From positions 2,790,001 through 2,854,000 of the forward strand of contig NZ_SODF01000001.1 of the NCBI RefSeq assembly GCF_004365875.1: a stretch of DNA of 64,000 nt, in the 5' to 3' direction. Source of the DNA: Kribbella kalugense (GTDB lineage Bacteria; Actinomycetota; Actinomycetes; Propionibacteriales; Kribbellaceae). A program made the position numbers and the translations under genes. The notes below the pieces were generated by a model. It searched no databases, was not told the DNA's origin, and was given only the letters and a program-made list of their open reading frames with translations. Of the stretch, positions 2,190 through 10,224 are shown in pieces. The stretch's first letter is position 1. Each line of letters begins with the position of its first letter.

Positions 2190-3377
2190 TCAGCAGTGAT
2201 GGCGGACGAAGTCGGTCAACGACCAGCCGGTGCGGCCGTCGGGCAGGCGAACGTGAACCCAGGTGTCGCCGTCTCGCGGGGAGATCGGAGTCAGATGGTC
2301 GCCCCGATACACGGTCGCCACCACCGTCCTGCTGCGCGGCGAGTCCCGGACGGTCGCATCCTGCGCGCAAACGGTCAGCTGATCGGCCGACCCTCGCCCT
2401 TGGGCGAGAGCAGTCGCCCCGACGGCAGCCAAAACCACCACAGGTACGGCGATTGCGGTCGCGAGGACGATCCTTCGCCGGGACGTTCCCCTTACCGGGG
2501 CTCCACTTTTGGCAACCCTCAGCGCAACGGCAAACTCGGCCGCAGTGGGGTACCGGTCGGTGGGTTCCTTGGCCATCGCCTTGCGGACCACCTCGTCGTA
2601 TGCGGACGAAACGCCGTACGAGCTGGGCGTCGGCGGTGGGAGCATGGCGACGGCGTAGGCGAGCTCGGGCAGCGTGCGACGTTCGTACGGGCGTCTGCCG
2701 GCGAGGAGACTGAACAGGGTGCCACCGAGGGCGTAGACGTCGGTGGCCGGTGAGACCGGATCGCCGCGCCACTGCTCAGGGGCCATGTAGGCGACCGTGC
2801 CGGCCATAGCGCCGAGGGAGGGACCTGGCGCCGATCCGCTGTGCAGCCAGGCGGCTTCGCCGGTGAGGTCCAGACCGGTGGTCGACTCGACGCTGGCGAG
2901 CTGCCGGGCGACGCCGAAGTCGGCGACCATCGGGCGCTCATTGTCGAGGATGATGTTGGCCGGCTTGAGATCCCGATGGATGACTCCGGCTTTATGCATC
3001 GCTTCGACCGCGTCCGCCACCTCGGCCATCAACGCGACGGCCTGCTCGACGTCCAGCGGGCCTTCATCGTCCAACCGGCGTTGAAGATCCGGGCCGGTCA
3101 GGCGGTCCATCACCAGCCACGCCTGATCGCGTTCGCCACCTACTTCGTGGACGCGTACGACGCCCGGATGCACGACGGCCGCGGCCAGCCGGGCCTCGCG
3201 GCGCAAGCGATCGCGGTACTGCGGGTCGACCAACTCGGGATGCATCACCTTGATCGCGACCGCGCTGCCGTCGGCCAGCCGGTTCGCCGCGTAGACGACA
3301 CCTGTCGCACCTGCACCCAGCGGCTCCGCCAGGCGGTAGCCAGGTACCTCGATCACGGCTCGCACACTAACTGGCAC
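2190..3377 (-). CDS. Membrane Ser/Thr protein kinase with small SH3-like ectodomain
   Basis: The 395-residue protein is a Hanks-type kinase with all catalytic elements: P-loop GAGATG (21-26), Lys43 in VAIKV, HRDLKPAN with Asp136, DFG with Asp153 and APE at 199-201. The DFG-APE span is about 46 residues, roughly 20 more than in PknB-like kinases. One membrane segment at 303-325 leads to an extracytoplasmic tail of about 70 residues with TVCAQD (336-341) and a C-terminal Cys395. This tail resembles the secreted protein encoded at 4304-4588. The GTG at 3377 has GGAAG upstream and overlaps the HTH gene by 11 bases; GTGs at 3365 and 3356 are alternatives. Confidence 0.9.
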   Translation of the reverse strand: MPVSVRAVIEVPGYRLAEPLGAGATGVVYAANRLADGSAVAIKVMHPELVDPQYRDRLRREARLAAAVVHPGVVRVHEVGGERDQAWLVMDRLTGPDLQRRLDDEGPLDVEQAVALMAEVADAVEAMHKAGVIHRDLKPANIILDNERPMVADFGVARQLASVESTTGLDLTGEAAWLHSGSAPGPSLGAMAGTVAYMAPEQWRGDPVSPATDVYALGGTLFSLLAGRRPYERRTLPELAYAVAMLPPPTPSSYGVSSAYDEVVRKAMAKEPTDRYPTAAEFAVALRVAKSGAPVRGTSRRRIVLATAIAVPVVVLAAVGATALAQGRGSADQLTVCAQDATVRDSPRSRTVVATVYRGDHLTPISPRDGDTWVHVRLPDGRTGWSLTDFVRHHC

Positions 3378-3894
3378 TGTCCGCTTCCGGAAGGGAATCT
3401 GCTGCCAGCTCCACCAAGGATTCGAGGTGTGCCACCTCGGCCAGCACCTTGCGCCGGAAGCGCTGCAGATTGCCGGGGTCGTCGCCGGTCGCTCGCAGCG
3501 GGGACAACAGTTGCCTCACTGCTCGGCCGAGTTGGTCGTCGGCCGCGTCGTCGGCCACCGGCAGCAGCTCGCGCGCCTCGGCGAGGGCCTGGCTCAACAG
3601 CTTGAGCCGGATGGGTTCCTCCAGCAGCAGGGCGGCGACCCGGAGCATCCGCCGACCCGCCTTGAGTGCGAACTCGGAGCTCATCGGCTGCGCCGGTGCG
3701 TCCCGCTGCTCACGGACCGCGTCGATCCAGGGCTCAATCGTCGTACCGCGCCAGATCGGTCCGGACGACAGCTCCCCGTCGGGCTCCGGAATGCCGTGAC
3801 TGCGCCGCCGGCGCCAGGCCGTGACCAACTGCCGGTTCAGGCCGAGCGCCTCGGCGATCTCGGCGATCCCGTAGAAGGCCTTGCGTGCACTCAC
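3367..3894 (-). CDS. Putative HTH DNA-binding protein in the kinase operon
   Basis: About 175 residues from GTG 3894. The N-terminus (FYGIAEIAEALGLNRQLVTAWRRRR) looks like an excisionase/MerR-type helix-turn-helix, followed by a WRGTTIEPWID segment typical of small HTH proteins that read a DNA half-site. The remainder is helical and Leu/Ala-rich, possibly for dimerisation. Its stop overlaps the kinase start, so the two are coupled and it is a plausible kinase substrate or partner. It is divergent from the secreted-protein triad across a repeat-rich promoter region. An upstream ATG at 3930 is an alternative start. Confidence 0.7.
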   Translation of the reverse strand: MSARKAFYGIAEIAEALGLNRQLVTAWRRRRSHGIPEPDGELSSGPIWRGTTIEPWIDAVREQRDAPAQPMSSEFALKAGRRMLRVAALLLEEPIRLKLLSQALAEARELLPVADDAADDQLGRAVRQLLSPLRATGDDPGNLQRFRRKVLAEVAHLESLVELAADSLPEADSAS

Positions 3895-3911
3895 CCGGTC
3901 AGCGTAACCAC

Positions 3912-3989
3912 TGATGACACCTCTTGCCATCTCTGACGACACGTCTTAACGTCATCACAGATGACAATTCGATGGAGGTTCTGATGACA
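3912..3989. promoter_or_regulatory. Cluster of TGATGACA-type repeats in the divergent promoter region
   Basis: TGATGACA occurs at 3912-3919 and 3982-3989, TGACGACA at 3934-3941, CGTCATCA (inverted) at 3950-3957 and GATGACA at 3960-3966. The pair GTCATC-ACA-GATGAC (3951-3965) is a perfect palindrome. The last copy overlaps the start codon at 3984. The cluster lies between the HTH/kinase operon and the secreted-protein operon, so it could be an operator for the HTH protein. No mapped promoter is available. Confidence 0.5.
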
Positions 3990-4304
3990 CGGAAACCCGC
4001 CCTCCTCCTGACCGTGGTCGCCGTCACCGGCGCCGCGCTCACGGCCGGCAGTCCGGCCGCCAACGCCGTCGTACCGCCTGAACACGCAATCATCGTGTGC
4101 GACTCGGCGACCATGTACGAGAACTACGACTTCTCGATTCCCGGCCCGGTCCACGTGCTGCGCACGCTGGGCTACGGCGACAAGGTCGGCCACACCCGAG
4201 GCGCGCACCCGGTCTACAACGGCTGGGCGTCGATCCAGGACTTCGGCCCGAACGACTGGGGCTACGTCCGGATCGAGTGCCTCGGCGGTTGGGGGTCCTG
4301 GTGA
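3984..4304 (+). CDS. Small secreted protein with SH3-like features (triad gene 1)
   Basis: 106 residues. A Sec signal peptide (MTRKPALLL... ending in PAANA) would leave a mature domain of about 78 residues. That domain begins near HAIIVCDSATMYEN, ends with RIECLGG, and contains a Cys pair that could form a disulfide. The layout matches bacterial SH3-type domains, but sequence similarity is weak. GGAGG at 3974-3978 fixes the ATG at 3984. Its TGA overlaps the next ATG (TGATG), so the three secreted genes are translationally coupled. Function unknown. Confidence 0.8.
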   Translation: MTRKPALLLTVVAVTGAALTAGSPAANAVVPPEHAIIVCDSATMYENYDFSIPGPVHVLRTLGYGDKVGHTRGAHPVYNGWASIQDFGPNDWGYVRIECLGGWGSW

Positions 4305-4588
4305 TGAGCCGACTGCTGCGCACCACCGCTCTGGCCGGCGCCCTGCTGGTCGGCGGCGCCGTCCTCACCGCCGCCCCGGCCAACGCCGCGAACGGTCGCG
4401 TCGGCGTCCGCGAGACCGTCTGCGCCCAGGACCTCGAGCTCCGCACCGAACCGCTCGGCGCCCGGATGGGCACCCTGCACAAGCCGCAGACCTTCCTGGT
4501 CAAGCAGGTCTCGGGCAGCTGGGTCTACGGATTCGCGTACGGCGACATCAACCACGACGGCTGGGTCCAGGACGGGTGGTTCTGCTGA
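4304..4588 (+). CDS. Small secreted SH3-like protein resembling the kinase ectodomain (triad gene 2)
   Basis: 94 residues: a signal peptide ending in PANA, then a 65-residue mature domain. TVCAQD, then R and P a few residues on, then a final DGWFC, repeats the pattern of the Ser/Thr kinase ectodomain (TVCAQD, R, P, ... terminal HHC). Both have Cys near the start and at the extreme C-terminus. This suggests a common SH3b-like fold. Start and stop codons overlap both neighbours, so the genes act together. Possible ligand, competitor or cell-wall sensor for the kinase; that role is inference. Confidence 0.8.
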   Translation: MSRLLRTTALAGALLVGGAVLTAAPANAANGRVGVRETVCAQDLELRTEPLGARMGTLHKPQTFLVKQVSGSWVYGFAYGDINHDGWVQDGWFC

Positions 4589-5265
4589 TGCGGCGTCTCC
4601 TTGCGATCGCGGCAGCCGCTGTTGTGCTGTGTGGTTTCAGCGCCCCGGCTCACGCCGTCAACCAGTACACGACGATCGGGAACGTGCCGAAGCCGGCGGC
4701 GTGCAACAACAGCGGGATCATGCCGGCCGGAGGCTGGCTTGCCAACAAGTCCTGCGGCTACGTCATGGGTACGGCGATTGCCGGGACGCAGTTCGATGTC
4801 CACACGACGACCGCGAACAACTTCCATTTCGGTCGGTGGCGTGCCGGGGACGGGTCGAACTTCTGCGCCTTCCTGGTCCCGGGTGCGCTGGATACGTCGC
4901 ACTCGACGTCGGTCGCGTCCAGTTGCAGCGACGACACGAGTGAGCGGCTGTCCCATCGCCGTACGTTCGGTCGCGACTTCGACGCGGCGCCACACACGGG
5001 CAACGGCGCGATCATCGTGCCGATCAACCCGTCCGCGTGCACGGGCTATTACAACTACTTCGTCGACAGCAACTACGCCTCCGGGAGCCTGCACGACCCG
5101 GTCGGCTTCGCACTGCCCGCCGCCGGCGGCTACCGCTACGCCACCAACGATCTTGGCGCGGCCATGATCCGAGTGGACGCCCTCGGCCAGACGATCTGGC
5201 TCTTCGTTGCCCGGAGCTGTATTGCCGCCCAACTCCCTAGCGGACTGAACAACGAGAACGACTGA
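4588..5265 (+). CDS. Secreted Cys-containing protein of unknown function (triad gene 3)
   Basis: 225 residues. Signal peptide MRRLLAIAAAAVVLCGF...APAHA, then a mature domain of about 200 residues with six cysteines, suggesting disulfides outside the cell. Near the C-terminus, AAMIRVDALGQTIWLFVARSC looks beta-rich. I recognise no catalytic motif. The start overlaps the previous stop (TGATG). An inverted-repeat element starts at its stop codon and may end the transcript. Confidence 0.8.
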   Translation: MRRLLAIAAAAVVLCGFSAPAHAVNQYTTIGNVPKPAACNNSGIMPAGGWLANKSCGYVMGTAIAGTQFDVHTTTANNFHFGRWRAGDGSNFCAFLVPGALDTSHSTSVASSCSDDTSERLSHRRTFGRDFDAAPHTGNGAIIVPINPSACTGYYNYFVDSNYASGSLHDPVGFALPAAGGYRYATNDLGAAMIRVDALGQTIWLFVARSCIAAQLPSGLNNEND

Positions 5266-5381
5266 GATTGCGTACCGACGAACGGGTAGTAGTCGCCCCC
5301 GAGAACCCGCCGCAGGCGGGCGATCGGGCCGGAATGCCGACCACTACCCGTTCTTCGGTACGGTTTGGCCCGTGCAATCTC
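5264..5381. repeat. 118-bp imperfect inverted-repeat element
   Basis: Nested arms: GAGATTGC (5264-5271) pairs with GCAATCTC (5374-5381), and 5272-5295 pairs with 5338-5361 (22 of 24 positions complementary). A central hairpin CCCGCC-GCA-GGCGGG lies at 5306-5320. The left end covers the stop codon of the secreted protein and the right end covers the GTG start of the mug-like gene at 5372. It could be a terminator, a regulatory RNA fold or a small mobile repeat (MITE/REP-like). No U-run follows it. Confidence 0.8.
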
Positions 5382-5872
5382 TGCCCGATGTGATCAGGCC
5401 CGGCCTGCGGGTGCTCTTCTGCGGGATCAACCCCGGATTGATGTCGGCGCAGACCGGACACCATTTCGCCCGGCCGGGGAATCGGTTCTGGCCGGCGCTT
5501 CATCTCAGCGGGTTCACCCCACGCCAGCTCAAGCCCGCCGAGCAGGAGGAGTTGCTCAGCTACCGGCTCGGGATCACCAACGTGGTCAGCCGCCCGTCGG
5601 CGCAGGCGGCCGAGCTGACCAAGGCCGAGCTCGTGTCCGGCGGCGAGCAGCTCGTGGCGAAGGTGCTCACGGCGCAGCCGGAGTGGCTCGCCGTCCTCGG
5701 AGTCACGGCGTACCGCGACGCCTTCGGAGAGCGCAAGGCGGCCATCGGCAAGCAGGACCGCACGATCGGCGCCACCCGCGTCTGGGTGCTACCGAACCCG
5801 AGCGGCCTGAACGCTCACTACACGTTGCCGAAGCTCGCCGATGCGTTCGGGGAGCTCGAGCGGGTCAGTTGA
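5372..5872 (+). CDS. mug: G/U (G/T) mismatch-specific DNA glycosylase
   Basis: 166 residues, the usual size of Mug/TDG-family glycosylases. The motif GINPGLMSA near residue 19 is the uracil-binding loop with catalytic Asn, and NPSGLNAHY near residue 139 is the intercalating loop of this family. The enzyme removes uracil or thymine analogues mispaired with G, starting base-excision repair in the cytoplasm. The GTG start lies inside the right arm of the inverted-repeat element, which may affect initiation. The next gene begins 25 bases downstream. Confidence 0.9.
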   Translation: MQSLPDVIRPGLRVLFCGINPGLMSAQTGHHFARPGNRFWPALHLSGFTPRQLKPAEQEELLSYRLGITNVVSRPSAQAAELTKAELVSGGEQLVAKVLTAQPEWLAVLGVTAYRDAFGERKAAIGKQDRTIGATRVWVLPNPSGLNAHYTLPKLADAFGELERVS

Positions 5873-5896
5873 CCGGAAGTTCGGCAGGATGGGGTC

Positions 5897-8800
5897 ATGC
5901 GAGCCTCGGATCTGCTGCGGTCGATCGACCATCTCCCGTACGGCGAACGTCTCCGGACTGTCGCGCTCGAGGGGCAGCGGTTGCGTGGGACCGCTGAACT
6001 GACCGAGCTGCTCGGCGAGCTGAGCCGCGGTACCGCGTTCGAACGGACCCTCGGTCTGACCCTTGCCCAGGTGACGGGCGAGGTCGCGTACGTGACGCAC
6101 CTCCTGCGCGATCCCATGCCGTCGGTCCAGCATCGCGCGCTCGCAACGGTCCGTGGAGGCGTCCCGGTCTCCGACGACGAGCTCAGAATCCTGTACGACG
6201 ATGCACCGGCAGCGCTGCGCACGAAGCTCCTGCAGGTCATCCGCAAGAACGGGCGGTCCCTGCTCGCCGCGCGCCTGATCGACGAACATCGCGAACGCTG
6301 GGGCGACCGCGCCGCAGCCAGCCTCCTGAACACCACCGACGATCAGACGGTCGAGCGACTCCTTCCCGAGCTGGCCTACTGCCTCGGCAGCGGTGAGTGG
6401 CGCCGCCTCGGCACCCAGCACCCCAAGATCGTCCTCGCCTACGCGAGCACCACGCTGCCGACCGGCCCGGACAAGGACGAGTGGTGGCAAGGTCCGGCGT
6501 ACGGCGTCGTCGGCGTGCTGGACCACGATCCGGAGCAGGCCGCCGACCTGCTCACCACAGCACTCCCGCCCGATCAGTTGCCGATGGCAATCGTCTCGAT
6601 CCTGGGCCGACTGGTCGACGCCGATCCGGAAGGTGTGCTGGCGATCCTGCTCACCCCCGAACGTGCGCCGGCACTCCGCACCGCACTCACGCCCGCGGTC
6701 CGCCGTCGACTGCACCGCTACTCCGACGACGACCTGATCGGGCTCGGCCGACTGCTGTGGCCGGATCTGACCCAGTTGCTCGAGGACCTTCCGCCGTCCC
6801 GCCGCGCGACCATCTTCACCGCCGTCACCAGCAGCGTCGACCTGAGTCAAACCCTTCTCTCTACCGAACTGCTCGCCGTACTCCCCCGTGAGCTCCGCTT
6901 CACCCAAGCTCGTCGCATGCTCGCGCTGGCAGCGATCGCAGACGATCACCACCAGCGCTGTCGGACCGCCGCGTTCCTGCCCTTCGACGAGGCGTTCGCG
7001 CTGCTCGAGCCGGAGGTCCGTCGGCCGGATGCCGACGATCGCGCGATGGTCTATCGGGCCGTCGTTGACGCGGCAGGCCACTCCCGGGAGGCCGCGGCGA
7101 TCGAGAGCGCGCTGTCCTGGGCGACGCGGGTCCGGAATGATCGTGACACCGTTCGTCAAGGGGTCGTGCGAGCAGTCAGGGAGCTCCCGCCCTCGACGCT
7201 GACCAACCGATTGGTCGGTTCACTGCAGACCCTGCTGACCGACGCTCTGGAGGCGCGCGACACGTCCTGGTACACCCGGTCGGCGCTGACCAAGATCGCC
7301 GAAACCGCCGTACGCGAAGGTGCACTGCGCAGCGAGTCCGAGCTGCTCGAGTGGGGCCTGCAGGCGCATGGCCGACTGACCGAGAACCAGGGCACGATCC
7401 AGCTGTACGGCGTGATCGACGGTCTGCCTCGCGGTCAGGAGGCCGCGGTGTACGACGTACTGCGGAGGTACGTCGACGACGCGGTGGCGCGACGGGAGTT
7501 CCGGCTGCCGTTCGCGATCGCCCGTGCCTTCGACAAGCGCGGCTGGCCGAACGAGCACCTGCAGGCCGCACTCGAGCAAGGCGTGTGGTCGAACCAGGAG
7601 TACACCGTCGGCGAGGCCACCGAGTTGTGGCTCTGGCCGACCGCGACCAGGTCCGAGCGGACCCAGCGGATTATCAAGCGCGACGTCGGCATGGCCCGAT
7701 GGGATCCGGTATGGCAGGCCGTCACCGAGCTGCGGACCGACCTCCTCGACGCCGTACTCGCGAAGCCCGACCGGATCCGCCGGTTCGATCGCAACCACCC
7801 GGCCTGGCAGGTGTCCGACCGAGCGGTACGCCGCTGGCTCTCCCGCCAGCAGACCCGGTACGCCGAACTTGTCGCGCGTGCTGCTGGTGATGCACGGATG
7901 CCGGACTGGGCTCGGGCCAACGCGGTGTCGATGCTCGGGCGCGTGCCGGGGGCCGGACGTGCGGTGCTCGAACCGTTCCTGCAGCACGAGTCCGTGCTGT
8001 TGCAGGAGGCGGCGTTGGGTGCGCTGGCGTGGACCGATGTGCCGCAGGAGGCGTTGCCGGTGCTGCTGTCGCATGCGGGTGACGATCGGGCTCGGGTGGC
8101 TATCTATGCGGCGACTCGGGCGGCTCGGTTCGTCCGGCCGAGTGTGTTGCCTGGGCTGCTGCATCCCGTTCTGGTTGGTGACGGTGTGAAGGTGACTTCC
8201 CGCAAGGAGGCTGCGCGGCTGCTCGGGGAACTTCGTGCGCCCGGTGCGAGCGAAGTACTGGCCGATGCTTGGGCTTCAGCCCATCGGGATGTGAAGGCGG
8301 CGATCGCGAGCTCGGCTTCGCAGTATTTGTTGCATGAACCGGCTAGTTGGGCGTTGTTGCAGGAGGCTGTGCACGACAGTGCGGCTACGGCGACGGTGCT
8401 GACTCAGCGTGCGGCGTACGGGATGGCGTTCAAGTACCGGTCGCGTTATGCGGATCTGCTGGTCGCGATCACCAACCGGCCTGAGCCTGAGGTCGTCCAG
8501 GTCGCCTTGCGGTCGCTGCCTCGGTGGGCTCGGTGGAATCCTTCGGTGGCGCCGGTGTGTGCTGGGTTCATCACCGATCTGACCGCGCGTACGACTTGGA
8601 ACGATGCGACGACTGCTTTGGTTGCGATCGTTGCGAGTGATCCGCGGCTTGGTCTGGCCGATCTGGTGTCGGCTGTGCGATTGCTGCTCAGGTTGGAGAG
8701 CGATCCGCGGTTGCCGAACGGGACTGCCGACCGCGATCATCCTGCGCGGCAGCGTCTCGTCACCCTTGTGACGCGGCTGACCAAGGCGTTCAGCGCGAAG

Positions 8801-9229
8801 CCGGCTGAGACACGGCAGACGTTGAAGACCGTGGCCGCGGAGTTGGACGGCTCGGACTTCCTGCAGCTTCGGCTTGAGCTCGACGTCTATTCGCTCGATT
8901 GGTCCGACCTCGGTGCTGCATTGCGCAGCCTGATCGAGGCGGTCGACGGGCGGCCGTTGGTTGCACAGCAGACGGCACTGCTGCTCGGCGCGCGACTGGG
9001 TATGACCGAGGCTCAGTGGGCGCCGGTGCTCTTGGAGCAGCCTGTCCGGGGTCTGGTGCGTGGCGACACGTTGATGGAGGGGCTGCTTGCGTGGGCGGTC
9101 ATCGGGGCTGCTGGCCGGCGTACGAACTGGGCTGCGGAGCGGCGGGAGCTACTCGTTGCCTTGCGCAATCATCCGCAGGCCGACGTACGGCAGCAGGCTC
9201 TTGAGCTTGTCACCGCATCCGAGGCCTAG
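5897..9229 (+). CDS. Large helical-repeat (HEAT-like) protein of unknown function
   Basis: 1110 residues, no signal peptide or membrane segment, rich in Leu/Ala/Arg with repeated short amphipathic helices. Examples are PMPSVQHRALATVRGG, HESVLLQEAALGALAW and NHPQADVRQQALELV, as in HEAT/ARM solenoids. I see no catalytic motif. Such proteins usually act as scaffolds. The last third (about 8000-9200) uses more T-ending codons than the first two thirds. It ends 2 bases from the convergent LigD-type polymerase gene; mug is upstream on the same strand. Confidence 0.75.
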   Translation: MRASDLLRSIDHLPYGERLRTVALEGQRLRGTAELTELLGELSRGTAFERTLGLTLAQVTGEVAYVTHLLRDPMPSVQHRALATVRGGVPVSDDELRILYDDAPAALRTKLLQVIRKNGRSLLAARLIDEHRERWGDRAAASLLNTTDDQTVERLLPELAYCLGSGEWRRLGTQHPKIVLAYASTTLPTGPDKDEWWQGPAYGVVGVLDHDPEQAADLLTTALPPDQLPMAIVSILGRLVDADPEGVLAILLTPERAPALRTALTPAVRRRLHRYSDDDLIGLGRLLWPDLTQLLEDLPPSRRATIFTAVTSSVDLSQTLLSTELLAVLPRELRFTQARRMLALAAIADDHHQRCRTAAFLPFDEAFALLEPEVRRPDADDRAMVYRAVVDAAGHSREAAAIESALSWATRVRNDRDTVRQGVVRAVRELPPSTLTNRLVGSLQTLLTDALEARDTSWYTRSALTKIAETAVREGALRSESELLEWGLQAHGRLTENQGTIQLYGVIDGLPRGQEAAVYDVLRRYVDDAVARREFRLPFAIARAFDKRGWPNEHLQAALEQGVWSNQEYTVGEATELWLWPTATRSERTQRIIKRDVGMARWDPVWQAVTELRTDLLDAVLAKPDRIRRFDRNHPAWQVSDRAVRRWLSRQQTRYAELVARAAGDARMPDWARANAVSMLGRVPGAGRAVLEPFLQHESVLLQEAALGALAWTDVPQEALPVLLSHAGDDRARVAIYAATRAARFVRPSVLPGLLHPVLVGDGVKVTSRKEAARLLGELRAPGASEVLADAWASAHRDVKAAIASSASQYLLHEPASWALLQEAVHDSAATATVLTQRAAYGMAFKYRSRYADLLVAITNRPEPEVVQVALRSLPRWARWNPSVAPVCAGFITDLTARTTWNDATTALVAIVASDPRLGLADLVSAVRLLLRLESDPRLPNGTADRDHPARQRLVTLVTRLTKAFSAKPAETRQTLKTVAAELDGSDFLQLRLELDVYSLDWSDLGAALRSLIEAVDGRPLVAQQTALLLGARLGMTEAQWAPVLLEQPVRGLVRGDTLMEGLLAWAVIGAAGRRTNWAAERRELLVALRNHPQADVRQQALELVTASEA

Positions 9230-9231
9230 CG

Positions 9232-10224
9232 TCAGTCCTTCGGCTTGGTCTCGGCTGCTGCGGACTCCTCGGCTTCGCGGGCTCGTTTGCGGCGTTTGCC
9301 TTCGTGCATGGCGACGACTCGCGCGATCGGGATGGCGCGGCCCTCTTCGAGCAGGTCCTCCGGAAGAGACTGCGGTGCGGGAAGCGCGTCGGCCCACGGG
9401 TCGGTGTCGCCCAGCAGCGCCGGCGCGGTCTTGACGGTGAAGTCGCGCGGGGTGACGCTCTCGATGTCGTCCCATCCCACCGGGTACGAGACCGTCGTAC
9501 CCGGACGGACCCGCGGGCTGTACGCCGCCACGATCGTCGCCCCGCCGGAACGAGTGGAGTCGACGAACACCTTCCCGTGCCGGTCCTCCTTGATGTACGC
9601 CGTCGTCGCGACCGACGGATCGATCTTCTCGGTCCGCGCCGCGATCGCCCGGGTCGCCGCCGCGGCGTCCTCGATCGACACCGTGTCGACGATCGGCACG
9701 ATCACGTGCACACCCTTCGCGCCACTCGTCTTGACCGCGCCGGACAGCCCCGAATCCGTCAACGCCTGGCGGACCAGCAGCGCCGCCTGAACCGCCATCG
9801 TGAACGTCTCCCCCTCCGGCGGGTCGAGGTCGAGGACAAGGTGCGTGACCCGGTCCCAGCGGTCGGCCCGCATCAGGGTCGGGTGGTACTCAACTGCTCG
9901 CTGGTTGGCGAACCACAGCAGCGTCCGCCGGTCGTCGCACAACGCGTACGACACCTCGCGCTTGGACGCCTCCGCCCAGACCGGCACCGTCTTCACCCAA
10001 TCCGGCGTGTACTTCGGAACGTTTTTCTGCATGAATTTGGGCTGTCCCGGACGGATCCGGATCACCGACAGCGGGCGCTCCCGCAGTTCCGGCAGGATCC
10101 GCTCGTGTACCGCGTCCAGGTAGTCGACCAGGTCCCGCTTGGTCGCCTCCGCCCCGTCGAACAACGGCTGATCCAAGTTGGTCAGGTCAACGCCGTCCCG
10201 CGTCTCATCCGGCTTACTCGCCAT
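9232..10224 (-). CDS. Stand-alone LigD-type polymerase/primase (PolDom)
   Basis: 330 residues covering one archaeo-eukaryotic-primase domain as in bacterial LigD. LDLDPP near residue 131 carries the metal-binding Asp pair, followed by KTSGAKGVHV and DSTRSGG. It lacks the nuclease and ligase modules. Such polymerases add ribonucleotides and fill gaps in non-homologous end joining with Ku and a ligase. Neither Ku nor a ligase is encoded nearby. The last roughly 40 residues are Lys/Arg/Glu-rich and probably disordered. The start lies 21 bases after the stop of the SelA-like gene. Confidence 0.9.
   Translation of the reverse strand: MASKPDETRDGVDLTNLDQPLFDGAEATKRDLVDYLDAVHERILPELRERPLSVIRIRPGQPKFMQKNVPKYTPDWVKTVPVWAEASKREVSYALCDDRRTLLWFANQRAVEYHPTLMRADRWDRVTHLVLDLDPPEGETFTMAVQAALLVRQALTDSGLSGAVKTSGAKGVHVIVPIVDTVSIEDAAAATRAIAARTEKIDPSVATTAYIKEDRHGKVFVDSTRSGGATIVAAYSPRVRPGTTVSYPVGWDDIESVTPRDFTVKTAPALLGDTDPWADALPAPQSLPEDLLEEGRAIPIARVVAMHEGKRRKRAREAEESAAAETKPKD

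Follow-up and report, generated by a model that had tools for sequence, protein, structure and literature searches.

We lean towards the interpretation that a five-gene locus of Kribbella kalugense encodes an envelope-sensing, self-regulating circuit, made up of a membrane regulator with an SH3-like outer domain and a divergent operon of secreted SH3-like proteins. The locus lies in a window of 64,000 nucleotides, the whole stretch of DNA that was analyzed. On the minus strand are the genes for a 395-amino-acid Ser/Thr protein kinase (2190-3377) and a 191-amino-acid HTH protein (3367-3942), whose gene shares 11 nt with the beginning of the kinase gene. Across a gap of 41 bp, the plus strand carries the divergent operon encoding secreted proteins A (3984-4304), B (4304-4588), and C (4588-5265). 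The first-pass annotation had described the secreted genes as translationally coupled by TGATG overlaps and divergent from the HTH-kinase pair; all of the genes were found at the positions it gave, with the overlaps at 4302-4306 (A/B) and 4586-4590 (B/C). A long inverted repeat (ACGAACGGGTAGTAGTCG ... CGACCACTACCCGTTCTTCGGT), seen by eye 3' of C at window positions 5278-5365, is likely a terminator.

The catalytic domain of the kinase spans residues 12-280 and matches Pfam Pkinase (PF00069) with an E value of 6.8e-45. By this match and the intact motifs GAGATG, VAIKV, HRDLKPAN, DFG, and APE at residues 21, 40, 134, 153, and 199, the protein is a Hanks-type Ser/Thr protein kinase. A single membrane helix (residues ~303-321) is followed by an ectodomain (334-395; window positions 2193-2387, minus strand) bracketed by Cys337 and Cys395, which are 58 residues apart and the only cysteines in the protein. 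This ectodomain matches Pfam SH3_3 (PF08239), scoring 30.2 bits when scanned alone against a gathering cut-off of 27 and 25.9 bits inside the full-length kinase. A search of five Kribbella genomes that carry the module found SH3_3 above the cut-off in each, with orthologues reaching 35.7 bits. Among orthologues, mean identity is 84% in the ectodomain and 83% in the catalytic domain, compared to 38% in the linker and membrane helix; an ectodomain conserved like the catalytic domain, beside a variable linker and helix, fits a domain that recognizes a specific ligand. A Pfam scan found no PASTA repeat in the kinase, and the NCBIfam PASTA kinase model NF033483 scored 219.6 bits, below its cut-off of 450, with the match limited to residues 14-296. 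Each Kribbella genome searched contains two to five SH3_3 domains. The three other SH3_3 proteins of the K. kalugense genome look secreted or wall-related, and one of them, judged by eye from its sequence, reads as a PGRP-type amidase.

Protein B consists of a Sec signal peptide, recognized by its sequence pattern, and a Cys-bracketed SH3-like domain of ~65 amino acids whose two cysteines (40 and 94, 54 residues apart) are the only ones in the protein. The motif TVCAQD, which had been pointed out as common to the ectodomain and B, is a match beyond chance: only 8 of 20,000 shuffled ectodomain-B pairs had any 6-mer in common, and the local alignment score of the two domains was reached in 3 of 2,000 shuffles. 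Comparison of the B profile with the ectodomain profile gave an E value of 2e-7 at 94% probability, or 1.2e-6 with 26 B sequences, and in a small set the kinase profile reached Streptomyces B genes, at E values as low as 4e-5. On this sequence evidence, the B domain is homologous to the kinase ectodomain. The ectodomain scores 43 with the B protein encoded next to it and up to 66 with B from other genomes, and its origin by recent duplication of the adjacent B gene was therefore rejected. The K. kalugense ectodomain finds its best match in the B protein of another Kribbella genome, G004. Origin from a mobile element or phage was likewise not adopted; B had no match in phages, and A, which is annotated as "hypothetical protein" in a Kitasatospora plasmid, had two matches in actinobacterial plasmids.

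Protein A, which also has a Sec signal peptide by sequence pattern, is predicted to carry a 77-amino-acid SH3-like domain. AlphaFold2 with 36 homologues gave a confident small beta-barrel of SH3-like form (pLDDT 90.8). A Foldseek search with this model found the bacterial SH3-like structure 9ovi as the best PDB match, followed mostly by SH3 domains, at modest figures (E 5e-3 at best, TM-score 0.65/0.74). Profile comparisons of A with the ectodomain or B, built on as many as 36 and 26 sequences, gave no significant match, so the SH3 assignment of A draws on the predicted fold. Neither A nor B reached the SH3_3 gathering cut-off, and no Pfam SH3 match was obtained for any member of either family. 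The first-pass annotation had presented A as a look-alike by its cysteine layout. A does have a two-cysteine layout (39 and 99 only, 60 residues apart), but the second cysteine lies 8 residues before the end of the protein; the resemblance to the ectodomain holds for cysteine spacing and predicted fold, but not for direct sequence similarity, which is at chance level (alignment score reached in 807 of 2,000 shuffles). An SH3-like character is thus supported by Pfam for the ectodomain, by profile comparison for B, and by predicted fold for A. Because the cysteine pairs of the kinase, A, and B are invariant among Kribbella orthologues, we infer a disulfide between the paired cysteines in each of the three domains.

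Protein C, whose connection to the others was absent from the first-pass annotation, is by its sequence also a member of the set. Behind a Sec signal peptide, again assigned by sequence pattern, it combines a B-like half and an A-like half, with six mature cysteines that are invariant among Kribbella orthologues. The A profile matches the C-terminal half of C (E 2.6e-5), and the B profile matches the N-terminal half of two C homologues (E 1.5e-5 in Catellatospora tritici and 4.5e-4 in Dactylosporangium vinaceum). AlphaFold2 run on C with eight close sequences produced no usable model (pLDDT 37).

Within Kribbella, the HTH-kinase pair and A-B-C occur all or none: the same 8 of 25 genomes have the full five genes, and the set is absent from the other 17. 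Gene order and flanks are identical in all Kribbella carriers, and the HTH gene adjoins the kinase in every case. One of the 17 genomes without the set, G004, contains a distant A-B pair with no kinase; this pair lies at positions 8647-9331 of its locus (L058), near an AraC-like gene. In Kribbella jiaozuonensis, the module and its flanks are present on two scaffolds that are 100% identical over 16,001 bp, and the second copy, probably an assembly duplicate, was left out of the count. The full set was also found in two further named loci, from K. monticola and "Streptomyces" sp. SID13031. In the latter record, both the module and its flanks are Kribbella-like, and the genus label may be wrong.

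Outside the genus, the genes are scattered. In fourteen other genomes of the order, a marginal match to the HTH protein was all that turned up, and a class-wide draw of 395 genomes contained, besides K. kalugense itself, two genomes with C, two with A, and six with B. A is present in 23 of 200 Streptomycetaceae genomes, and stand-alone A-B pairs occur in about 11%; the loci examined in this family pair A with B and lack a kinase, C, and an SH3 regulator over ~6 kb around the pair. A-B is thus the core secreted unit, for which the kinase is not needed. C stands alone in four genomes. These lone A-B pairs and lone C genes imply that the secreted proteins serve a function apart from the regulator described here. 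In Streptomyces sp. NRRL F-5122, a DUF6891 gene (E 1e-60; positions 6001-7092 of locus L085) is divergent from A-B-C.

Four other loci encode a different kind of membrane protein beside the secreted genes. In each, A/B/C or an A-B fusion is divergent from a protein consisting of an HTH, one membrane helix, and a Cys-bracketed ectodomain. The Planomonospora locus (L076/L088) encodes C and an A-B fusion and, divergently, a protein of 257 amino acids whose start is HTH_31-like and whose C-terminal domain, behind a membrane helix, has a cysteine near both ends. Dactylosporangium vinaceum (L087) has the order C-A-B divergent from a 207-amino-acid protein in which HTH_31, membrane helix, and domain follow one another, and two genomes of one family, tentatively taken as Frankia-like (L141 and L142), have an A-B fusion divergent from proteins of the same HTH-helix-domain form. 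The ectodomains of L087, L141, and L142 align with one another through YRV, GT, and GY motifs and a terminal cysteine and gave no SH3 match, and the Planomonospora ectodomain matches SH3_2 with an E value of 0.005. This shared pattern and the weak matches point, if faintly, to these ectodomains likely being SH3-like as well. What recurs therefore looks like a membrane regulator that has a Cys-bracketed ectodomain and an exchangeable cytoplasmic output and is encoded divergently from secreted proteins of SH3-like type. The first-pass annotation had seen a coherent kinase-centered module. The five genes are indeed one unit in Kribbella, but the kinase is not a constant part, since the Streptomycetaceae pairs occur with no kinase. 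The occurrence of triad homologues without the kinase, which that annotation had set against its own proposal, applies to the kinase itself but does not reach the wider module, and membrane regulators with a Cys-bracketed ectodomain do recur beside A/B/C in other families.

In Kribbella, the output of the kinase is probably the DNA-binding HTH protein, which has weak Pfam matches to HTH_23 and HTH_28 (E ~0.001). The 41-bp divergent gap contains a perfect palindrome, GTCATC-ACA-GATGAC (3951-3965), which is exact or near-exact in most of nine aligned loci and degenerate in two; it is a candidate operator.

The circuit that we lean towards would operate as follows. A single-pass regulator would sense the envelope through a small outer SH3-like domain of the disulfide type and, via a DNA-binding partner, would control the divergent A/B/C operon and so adjust secretion of its products. 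The Kribbella kinase presumably does this by phosphorylating the HTH protein encoded beside it; in Planomonospora, Dactylosporangium, and the Frankia-like family, the HTH is attached directly to the membrane helix, and control would run through a single polypeptide. Ectodomain and secreted domains may bind a common ligand in the envelope, for which peptidoglycan is the likeliest candidate, or may recognize one another. By analogy, peptidoglycan would be the favored ligand, since lysostaphin SH3b domains bind peptidoglycan (PMC6461655), one SH3_3 protein of K. kalugense looks like a PGRP-type amidase, and C lies near apparent muramidases and amidases in Catellatospora. In C. tritici (L086, ~4000-8654), the lone C gene is beside what appear by eye to be two GH25-like muramidases and two PGRP-like amidases. 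Counting against the circuit are the kinase-free A-B pairs, the lone C genes, the DUF6891 gene in the divergent position in NRRL F-5122, the dissimilarity of A in sequence, and the weak or absent SH3 matches of the HTH-membrane ectodomains.

The same observations could be read in other ways. The first-pass annotation had suggested that the secreted proteins compete with the ectodomain for ligand or dimerize with it; A, B, and C would then be ligands or soluble modulators that bind the kinase ectodomain, and the cell would measure its own product. Such a role would be in line with the homology of B and the ectodomain, including TVCAQD in both, and with the co-encoding of A/B and regulators with Cys-bracketed ectodomains in several lineages. 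We nevertheless consider it rather unlikely, because structural likeness by itself does not imply binding, A-B pairs exist without such a receptor, and the ectodomain resembles its neighbor B no more than it does foreign B proteins (43 versus up to 66), which does not point to a matched pair. Alternatively, a general wall-binding kinase may have come to lie by chance beside an old A-B-C operon to which it has no functional tie. The occurrence of A-B alone in Streptomycetaceae and in Kribbella G004 would be expected in that case, but the all-or-none occurrence of the five genes across 25 Kribbella genomes and the recurrence of the association with HTH-membrane regulators make this improbable. 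The rarity of SH3_3 further argues that an SH3-ectodomain kinase is unlikely to be found by chance beside SH3-like secreted proteins.

A role in defense or competition, in which a PD-T4-6-like kinase would be accompanied by secreted antagonists of the walls of other cells, seems very improbable. The kinase domain does match the PADLOC PD-T4-6 models (E 6e-77), and SH3b domains are known in wall-lytic enzymes. However, the models have no cut-offs and the match mainly covers the shared kinase domain, as expected of any Ser/Thr kinase; the label of anti-phage kinase was not adopted. In addition, A, B, and C have no recognized catalytic domain, and phages had no match to B. Beyond the self-regulating circuit, we tentatively entertain a two-sided actinobacterial system in which the cell secretes A, B, and A-B or B-A fusions and reads either these proteins or occupied wall sites via a related SH3-like receptor, with the output exchanged between lineages.

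Several known systems share parts of this arrangement. PASTA kinases such as PknB, PrkC, and Stk1, which bind muropeptides via their ectodomain (PMC5786024) and serve as the functional model here, similarly have a cytoplasmic Hanks-type kinase, a single membrane helix, and a wall-sensing outer part, but the ectodomain here is one Cys-bracketed SH3_3 domain rather than PASTA repeats. An architecture of kinase, membrane segment, and bacterial SH3 domain in the same order was noted in Synechocystis in 2005 (gi 1006577; PMC1262709). That protein, likened here by its description, is cyanobacterial, and the account given of it describes no secreted SH3-like partners. Bacterial SH3b wall-binding domains (lysostaphin, CpAcp) and the SH3-like domains of fungal GH24/GH184 proteins, which carry disulfides (PMC10394673), resemble A and B in being small secreted SH3 folds. 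Unlike them, A and B stand by themselves, with no hydrolase attached, and they have one cysteine pair near both ends compared to Cys9-Cys53 and Cys33-Cys72 in the fungal domain. The stand-alone pairs of Streptomyces and Kitasatospora are a homologous A-B unit, but kinase, C, and SH3 regulator are all missing from their surroundings. No paper on the kinase/A-B-C module was found in the searched literature, and as far as that literature goes, the link of a kinase to secreted SH3-like proteins and the swapping of the output between lineages appear to be new.

If the interpretation is correct, a single SH3 domain of the disulfide type would be added as a receptor type to the short list of sensors of bacterial kinases, and two secreted protein families without a Pfam entry would gain a first fold and context. 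The locus would then represent a small circuit with related domains in the receptor and its secreted partners, the output of which has been swapped in evolution.
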